The translations under genes were made by a program, and so were the position numbers. DNA of 33,842 nt from Gammaproteobacteria bacterium. GTDB lineage: Bacteria > Pseudomonadota > Gammaproteobacteria > SZUA-229. How positions within the stretch are numbered: position 1 is the first letter of the stretch; each line of letters starts with the position of its first letter. This document shows, piece after piece, positions 8,185 to 10,054 of the stretch. The notes beneath the pieces were generated by a model. It was not told the DNA's origin, did no database searches, and was given only the letters and a program-made list of their open reading frames with translations. The DNA lies in contig JAUVDN010000013.1 in the NCBI GenBank assembly GCA_030595325.1, positions 1 to 33,842 of the forward strand. The letters are read 5' to 3'.

Positions 8185-9354
8185 TTATTCCATCCCGAAT
8201 CTGGGCTCTTCAAATCGTCGGTGTCGACGACTCTTATCTTCTATCTTACCTGCTAATTGACCGCAAGCGGCATCGATATCATCACCACGCGTCTTTCGTA
8301 CAACTGTTGTCATACCTGACTCATGCAGTATTTCACTAAACCGCCTGACTGCATTTTTTGATGATGTACGATATCCCGAGCCTTCGAATGGATTAAACGG
8401 AATAAGGTTCATCAATGTAGGAATACCTTTTAGAAGCTTTATCAGTTCATGCGCATGTTCAGGCTGATCATTAATACCATCTAACATTACGTATTCAAAG
8501 GTTATTCTAGAACGTGAATTCTGTTTATCAATAAAACGTCGACAAGCAGCCATTAATTCTTTTAGCGGATATTTTTTATTGACTGGTACCAGTTCATTTC
8601 GCAGCTCATCATTTGTTGCGTGCAATGACACCGCCAGACGCATATCTACAACATCACCGAGCCTGTCCATCGCTGGTACAACACCTGCAGTACTCACCGT
8701 TACCCGGCGTTTACTTAAGCCATAGGCAAAATCATCCATCATGATGCGTACAGCACTGACTACCGCATCAAAATTTAGCAGCGGCTCACCCATGCCCATC
8801 ATCACGACATTGGTAATTTTACGTCCCGGTTTCTTTTCTTCGTCCAGCAGCTGAGATGCCAGCCAGACCTGAGATATTATTTCAGCCGTAGTAAGGTTTC
8901 GATTAAAGCCCTGCCGCCCGGTCGAGCAGAAACTGCAGTCGAGTGCACAGCCGACCTGTGATGAAACACATAAAGTTCCACGCTCATCTTCAGGGATAAA
9001 TACCGCTTCGATATAATTGCCATCATGCAGACGCAGTAACCACTTACGGGTACCGTCTGTTGAGATTAGATCTTCAGCAACTTCAAGGTTTTGAACACAG
9101 CTGATTTCAGATAACTGGTTACGCAGATCTTTAGACAGATTATTCATCTGCTGAAAGTCAGTAATGCCCAGCTGGTGCATCCACTTCATGACTTGAGTGG
9201 CACGGAATTTTTTCTCGCCGATAGTGGCAAAAAACGCCTCGAGTGCATCTCGATCCAGACCCAACAAGTTTATTACCTTAGTCGCCGCAACCTTAGTATC
9301 AAAAGATACTTGCTGTGTTGAATCAGCCGCTAATTGTGTCTGAACTTCGCTCAT
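8185..9354 (-). CDS. rlmN: Dual-specificity 23S rRNA A2503 / tRNA A37 C2-methyltransferase RlmN
   Basis: RlmN is a radical-SAM enzyme that methylates C2 of A2503 in 23S rRNA and A37 in some tRNAs. The 4Fe-4S motif CxxxCxxC is at residues 136-143 (CALDCSFC). The SAM-binding '[12 protein letters not shown]', the 'VSLHATND' segment and the C-terminal catalytic Cys in '[14 protein letters not shown]' (about residue 364) are all present. Length 389 is close to the E. coli protein; the first ~20 residues are a poorly conserved extension. It is the first gene after the repeat-filled gap that follows iscX, and probably heads an rlmN-pilW-rodZ unit. Confidence 0.97.
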
Positions 9355-9409
9355 TAGGAAATATTACATGATTATTGTAGATAGAACCTGCTTTTTATAC
9401 ACAGGCTAT

Positions 9410-9659
9410 AGGTCGGTTAATGGCCAATACTGTTGAAAAACTCTAAAATCATATAAAGCCAATTTCTCATCTAATTTGAATTTTCACAAAAACATAACTT
9501 GAATATTGCTTATAAGTTAGTGTGCGGATTTCTGCTGTGAGATCGACTTCGTGTTGTACCTGCCCGTACCTAAAAACATAAAACCTATTAAAGAAGCTTA
9601 AATATTTTTTACAGCTACTAAAAAAGAGTTTTTCAACAGTATCGGCCAATAAGAGACCT
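9410..9659. mobile_element. MITE-like element with 35-bp terminal inverted repeats
   Basis: The left end (9410-9444) and right end (9625-9659) are inverted repeats of 35 bases with four mismatches. The inner core ATACTGTTGAAAAACTCT is identical on both sides. The whole is 250 bp. The interior is AT-rich and codes for no transposase, so it would be a non-autonomous element moved in trans. I see no convincing target-site duplication: the flanks are CTAT and TTAG. The parent family cannot be named from the sequence. Confidence 0.75.
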
Positions 9660-9705
9660 TTAGAGTATTTGTCACTTTAGCTTTATTCGTTAAATTTAGG
9701 TTATG

Positions 9706-9779
9706 TTCGCGGAATGACAAAAATCCGCTCCTACAAAATAGCGCCTACCTGTAGGAGCGGATTTTTGTCATTCCGCGAA
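9706..9779. repeat. REPIN-like doublet: two inverted REP sequences
   Basis: A perfect 30-bp inverted repeat (9706-9735 and 9750-9779) encloses a 14-base spacer. Each arm, read outward from its GTAG, starts GTAGGAGCGGA and contains its own GCGGA-N10-TCCGC hairpin. This is the build of REP sequences: a GTAG head and an imperfect palindrome, paired head to head as in REPINs/BIMEs, which are mobilised by TnpA-REP (RAYT) transposases. No RAYT gene is in the window. Confidence 0.8.
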
Positions 9780-9850: not shown

Positions 9851-10054
9851 TTAATCTTCCTTCTCTTCTATCCATGCCAGCTGGACAGCTTCCAGAATAC
9901 GCTCGCCGGAATGCTCAGGATCATCATCAAAGTCTTCCAGGTCCAGTATCCACTGTCGTAGATCGACGAAATTAAGTTGTTTTGGATCCACGTCAGGATA
10001 TGTCTCATCCAGTTCGATGGCAATTTCCAGACTGTCTACCCATTTTAATATCAT
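9851..10054 (-). CDS. iscX: Fe-S assembly protein IscX
   Basis: IscX is a small acidic protein that binds IscS and iron and modulates Fe-S cluster assembly. The 67-residue sequence shows the family core 'VDLRQWILDLEDFDDDPEHS' and the end 'ILEAVQLAWIEEKED', nearly the same pattern as E. coli IscX. It begins 25 bases after fdx ends and is the last gene of the isc operon. Length is normal for the family (66-67). Nothing is unusual in it. Confidence 0.96.
   Translation of the reverse strand: MILKWVDSLEIAIELDETYPDVDPKQLNFVDLRQWILDLEDFDDDPEHSGERILEAVQLAWIEEKED

Follow-up and report, generated by a model that had tools for sequence, protein, structure and literature searches.

A 218-bp non-coding MITE, very probably of IS1182 type, at the centre of a palindrome between iscX and rlmN in a gammaproteobacterial genome

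We identified a 218-bp MITE in the gap between iscX and rlmN of a Gammaproteobacteria bacterium (the window, by which we mean the whole stretch of 33,842 nucleotides analyzed). We are highly confident that the element is of IS1182 type, is moved by an IS1182 transposase and was inserted at the centre of a palindrome. The original prediction described a non-autonomous MITE-like element and assigned neither family nor host range, both of which are now largely known. Its features are listed in Table 1; the genes were named from that prediction and from within-genus sequence similarity.

Table 1. Features of the element and its surroundings in the window
Feature	Position	Strand	Basis or remark
MITE, 218-bp, non-autonomous, non-coding	9426..9643	.	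Copies in own genome, 4-bp duplication and empty-target comparison
Left terminal inverted repeat AATACTGTTGAAAAACTC, 18 bp, one mismatch to consensus GATACTGTTGAAAAACTC	9426..9443	+	
Right terminal inverted repeat, 18 bp, perfect consensus GATACTGTTGAAAAACTC	9626..9643	-	
C-rich interior block, best-conserved interior part across 23 dereplicated relatives	9557..9571	+	~Model positions 132-144
Left 4-bp target duplication, GGCC	9422..9425	.	
Right 4-bp target duplication, GGCC	9644..9647	.	
Left palindromic target half (GTC..G.....GGCC type), including duplication	9409..9425	+	Flank profile, reconstituted targets
Right palindromic target half, including duplication; runs on into ~210-bp repeat	9644..9660	-	Flank profile, reconstituted targets
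iscX	9851-10054	minus	
rlmN	8185-9354	minus	

The genome (G000; 2.3 Mb in 122 contigs, assembly 82.8% complete) encodes five copies of the element at unrelated places, one in the window and the others on contigs C116, C94, C80 and C76, the last interrupted by the contig end. The window copy is 96-99% identical to the three other complete copies over 217-218 bp. The copies are alike only between the GATACTGTTGAAAAACTC ends, and thus the mobile unit is 218 bp long (9426-9643). The original prediction had placed a 250-bp element at 9410-9659, with 35-base inverted ends that differ at four positions. These arms (9410-9444 and 9625-9659) are real, with 89% identity and the 18-base identical core ATACTGTTGAAAAACTCT that had been reported, but the outer ~16 bases of each are a palindromic target half and not transposon end. 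Thus, arms of 35-39 bases consist of transposon ends plus target halves. In its longer form (39 nt, 87%; 9406-9444 and 9625-9663), the pair is the sole inverted repeat within 9300-9760. It is not due to chance, since none of 200 dinucleotide shuffles on either strand folds as well as the segment 9426-9643 (z -4.9 and -3.7); the fold stability is due to the end-to-end stem. The longest stop-free frame has 58 codons in the window copy and 57 in another, and is interrupted in two other complete copies (30 codons or fewer each). A coding interior is therefore ruled out, and comparison of stop-free frames across copies identified no transposase gene within the 218 bp, as predicted.

An exact 4-bp duplication flanks the window and C116 copies, whereas the C80 copy has one mismatch and the C94 copy has none. 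Among the matches listed, 30 of 40 elements have identical flanking 4-mers (compared to 9% with shuffled partners) and 10 lack an exact 4-bp duplication; exact duplications were found for 16 of 22 elements of the 218-bp class, 9 of 12 of a shorter class and 5 of 6 IS. When 78 flanks of 40 elements, again among the matches listed, are combined in a profile, GTC..G.....GGCC and its mirror form a palindrome centred on the duplication (one of 41 elements lacks one flank; targets were reconstituted from the 38 of 41 with both 17-base flanks). The consensus of this ~30-bp intergenic target is AAnGTCnGCTTTGGGCCCAAAGCnGACnTT. Scanning 513 kb around carriers (L047-L126), after masking the elements and 60 bases of flank, identified 43 palindrome sites of at least 14 bits, compared to a mean of 3.5 (maximum 10) in 40 permuted profiles. 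Since these sites are away from elements, the AAnGTCnGCTTTGGGCCCAAAGCnGACnTT palindrome is itself dispersed in carrier genomes.

We recovered the iscX-rlmN gap of 13 congeners, none of which has the element there (L198, which lacks rlmN, was left out, and G008, G015 and G016 have no iscX hit). One congener, G002, has an empty palindrome in the same gap (26 bits, two bases N), 61 bp from the rlmN start compared to 67 bp in the window. No element-size match was found in 53 other genomes of the order; G002 and G035 have 30-37 base matches only, and these gave no hit with a 23-member sequence model of the element. Element-free targets also occur within the genome itself, as the ~210-bp repeat to the right of the element is present without it on C49, C101 and, in part, C2. 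The C49 and C2 sequences read straight through the insertion point and are paralogous empty targets; C101 is less alike there and less clear. The prediction would have been contradicted by a single copy with the same sequence in all relatives; the genome has five copies and the congener gaps are element-free.

The gap also contains, at 9706-9779, a REPIN-like inverted doublet with arms containing GTAGGAGCGG, like GTAG-tagged REPs, which has 84 matches in the genome. The doublet lies within the ~210-bp repeat found at C49, C101 and partly C33 and C2. REP and REPIN sequences are palindromes of 20-40 bp that occur in high copy number, singly or as inverted doublets, and the doublet, a repeat distinct from the 218-bp element, fits this description. 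The element resembles REP/REPIN in being intergenic, repeated and palindromic, but differs in being a 218-bp unit in five copies, with transposon ends and a duplication. The gaps of the congeners (L194-L207) range from 39 to 507 bp and several hold other inverted repeats. Thus, intergenic repeats seem to land often in this gap.

At least 112 stretches of genome contigs contain the 18-base end, and 80 of them became loci. Among the matches listed, inward partner ends for 93 exact ends lie at 120-200 bp (14 times), 200-235 bp (26), 1500-1600 bp (8) and elsewhere (3), with up to four mismatches in the partner and an element with two exact ends counted twice; a reversed-end control gave no partner at any distance. 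The long class, among the matches listed, comprises pairs 1517-1584 bp apart that enclose a ~460-aa transposase, in alpha- and gammaproteobacteria. Translation of eight full-length 1500-1600-bp pairs and the truncated L063 gave, by eye, the same kind of transposase (L068 is a second copy of the L079 sequence, and both are frame-shifted or incomplete). One of these proteins matches the IS1182 family of NCBIfam (NF033551) with 415 bits, where the cut-off is 270, and two proteins searched against Pfam have DUF772 plus DDE domains. The same transposase also narrowly passes one IS5 model (145.5 vs a cut-off of 140), indicating that the boundaries between related families are gradual.

In at least two other genomes, a full IS occurs together with a ~218-bp element that has the same ends. 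G435 encodes a 1555-bp IS (L059) and a 221-bp element (L216), and in G421 a 1591-bp IS (L281; GATTCTG/GATACTG ends, target duplication TGCC) coexists with elements L055 and L221. In G626, the IS and the ~218-bp element both have variant ends, GATTGTGTTGAAAAACTC. Among named IS1182 elements, ISPsp5 resembles the element in its ends and has a GGTC/GGTC duplication and the same type of palindromic target. Such IS (NF033551; ISPsp5) thus have the same or similar ends, the 4-bp duplication and the palindromic target of the element, but are 1.5-1.6 kb long, with a transposase gene and an interior unrelated to the 218-bp element. Of 17 carrier genomes searched, 11 have IS1182 matches above the cut-off, compared to 1 of 14 control genomes. 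None was found in three MITE-bearing genomes (G431, G427 and G430), the assemblies of which may be incomplete. Common MITE and IS ends were not found in the large genomes G642 and G711, where IS ends differ, in a comparison in which inverted ends were undetected for 8 of 20 transposase loci and some listed pairs are possibly due to chance.

The element has the features of an IS1182 MITE, including ends in common with full-length IS of other genomes, a 4-bp duplication equal to that of the IS, no transposase gene, and several dispersed copies as well as empty sites. Copies, empty sites and IS with the same ends were what the original prediction looked to for support of its MITE reading, which is borne out, although the IS were found in other genomes only. 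In the 82.8% complete assembly of G000 there is no intact partner IS: no IS1182 transposase reaches the family cut-off and no relative of the L125 transposase was found, but there are two degenerate IS1182 transposase fragments (L243, C50:7200-7835, and L244, C68:2253-2510). An intact partner IS in the same genome is usual for a MITE but not strictly required. The partner probably lies in the unassembled 17% of the genome or has been lost.

We predict that an IS1182-type DDE transposase, from a full-length IS present here or formerly in the lineage, would bind the 18-bp ends and move the 218-bp unit in trans. It would join the unit to the centre of the ~30-bp intergenic palindrome AAnGTCnGCTTTGGGCCCAAAGCnGACnTT, and a 4-bp stagger would leave GGCC on both sides.

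We identified at least 24 distinct elements of 215-221 bp. Their hosts are Thalassobius, Sulfitobacter, Marivita, Rhodoblastus and Methylocapsa, as well as alpha- and gammaproteobacterial MAGs. A Phaeobacter plasmid bears a 216-bp element and two plasmids carry relatives of the Thalassobius copy; a plasmid search with the window copy gave only a 27-base match, and one scan of viral contigs gave no paired-end match. The exact paired-end pattern occurs in 2 of 369 genomes of the class, so the family is widespread but rare. The 23-member model has matches in 8 of 398 genomes of the phylum at E <= 0.001, including G000; six have full-length matches, and those in G508 (an IS end) and G688 are partial. 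Model members score 68-114 bits on one strand and 24-41 on the wrong strand. Outside the model set, G709 (54 vs 28 bits) and G514 (four copies of 71-94 bits and one of 49) are clear members, whereas G626, G642 and G711 (31-49 bits, with one hit of 25) are doubtful as to interior; their hits of 30-35 bits do not exceed the wrong-strand scores of true members and thus support length and ends but not interior homology. Most newly found elements have 217-219 bp between their ends, a figure biased by the model, which is of that length and so detects such elements preferentially. A length peak is supported without this bias by the partner-end distance survey.

The interiors are weakly conserved. With 22 bases removed from each end, 11 of 14 clusters match a profile of the other clusters better than any of 300 shuffles and three are indistinguishable from shuffles (one member per cluster was scored). 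Above-null conservation was found for 118 of 178 interior columns, in an alignment fitted to the model, which accounts for part of the conservation; the best block is C-rich (~132-144) and is also visible in a free alignment. Derivation from known IS interiors was rejected, as the interior has no match in 19 IS and short elements. A conserved RNA structure in the interior was likewise rejected: RNAalifold, applied to sets of 16 and 23 dereplicated members, found nothing beyond the ends, the interior fold is weak on both strands (z -0.6 and -0.4), and Rfam gives no family at gathering score for the window. At E up to 5, a search of 15 loci against Rfam gave a tRNA and three sub-threshold hits in L213.

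A second group with the same ends but lengths of 128-190 bp (L054, L085, L096, L118 and others) occurs in Rhizobium, Pseudooceanicola, Rhodovulum and other hosts. This group has no interior match to the 218-bp class; the 23-bit full-length model hit of L054 is within the range of ends alone. Some genomes have element pairs, 1.5 kb apart in L064 and ~50 bp apart and in opposite orientation in L252, which could act as composite pairs.

Alternatives to movement by an IS1182 transposase have to be considered. A transposase of another family with similar ends could move the element, as the assembly has no intact IS1182 and the transposase also passes the IS5 model. This is very unlikely, given that the long pairs translated all encode the same kind of transposase by eye (two were scanned) and that IS and element share the 4-bp duplication and the target. 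Even less credible is a static host feature resembling a MITE, such as a terminator or an rlmN regulatory leader. The position 67 bp upstream of the rlmN start codon and the stable stem formed by the ends would suit such a feature, but the element contains no terminator-like sites and three promoter-like sites compared to 1.5 expected. As a full account it is refuted by the five copies at unrelated places, the absence from 13 of 13 congener gaps, the 4-bp duplication and the empty targets. It is possible that the element acquired a host role later.

The ~218-bp elements might be an old, separately inherited lineage with an interior kept for a function (binding by the transposase or a host factor, or production of a transcript), and not mere deletion derivatives. 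This is conceivable but somewhat doubtful. The length of 215-221 bp in many genera, the 11 clusters above all shuffles, the conserved columns and the interior without counterpart in other elements point toward it, but common descent with slow decay yields the same picture, three clusters are at shuffle level, conservation comes partly from the model-fitted alignment, and there is neither a consensus RNA structure nor an Rfam family. Somewhat more plausible, although still tentative, is that the 215-221-bp elements form a single old MITE lineage that has spread horizontally, has a conserved interior of its own and is of near-constant length. This lineage would be parasitic on many IS1182 and, with those IS, would use the dispersed ~30-bp intergenic palindrome as a landing site.

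The closest described element is MITEPye1 of Paracoccus yeei. It is non-coding and intergenic, with 18-bp ends similar to those of ISPye18 (IS1182) and 4-bp direct repeats, and is thought to be moved by the IS1182 transposase (PMC11578231). Its copies are 96-100% identical and number 1-3 per chromosome. MITEPye1 has 159 bp compared to 218 bp here, and the available part of the description reports no target motif, whereas the target here is palindromic. In Staphylococcus aureus, the IS1182-family element IS1272 inserts at palindromic (stem-loop) sequences, and some members of the family target palindromes (Siguier et al., cited in PMC5678879). The proposal for IS1272 is that it replaces the stem-loop and causes no duplication (PMC5678879), whereas our element interrupts the palindrome at its centre and is flanked by a 4-bp duplication. 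We found no description of a ~218-bp IS1182 MITE in the literature searched, the coverage of which excludes most subscription journals. MITEs derived from IS1182 and palindrome targeting by IS1182 are already known, and this MITE is a new member. Less expected is the near-constant length of 215-221 bp with a weakly conserved non-coding interior across many genera.

The previously unnamed element now has a family, borders, a partner family and a target. Inverted arms read from one sequence can mix transposon ends and target halves, and work on IS1182 transposition gains a defined landing site in the palindrome. Provided that the lineage of constant length is real, MITEs of bacteria can be maintained across classes as stable lineages and do not have to arise repeatedly by deletion.
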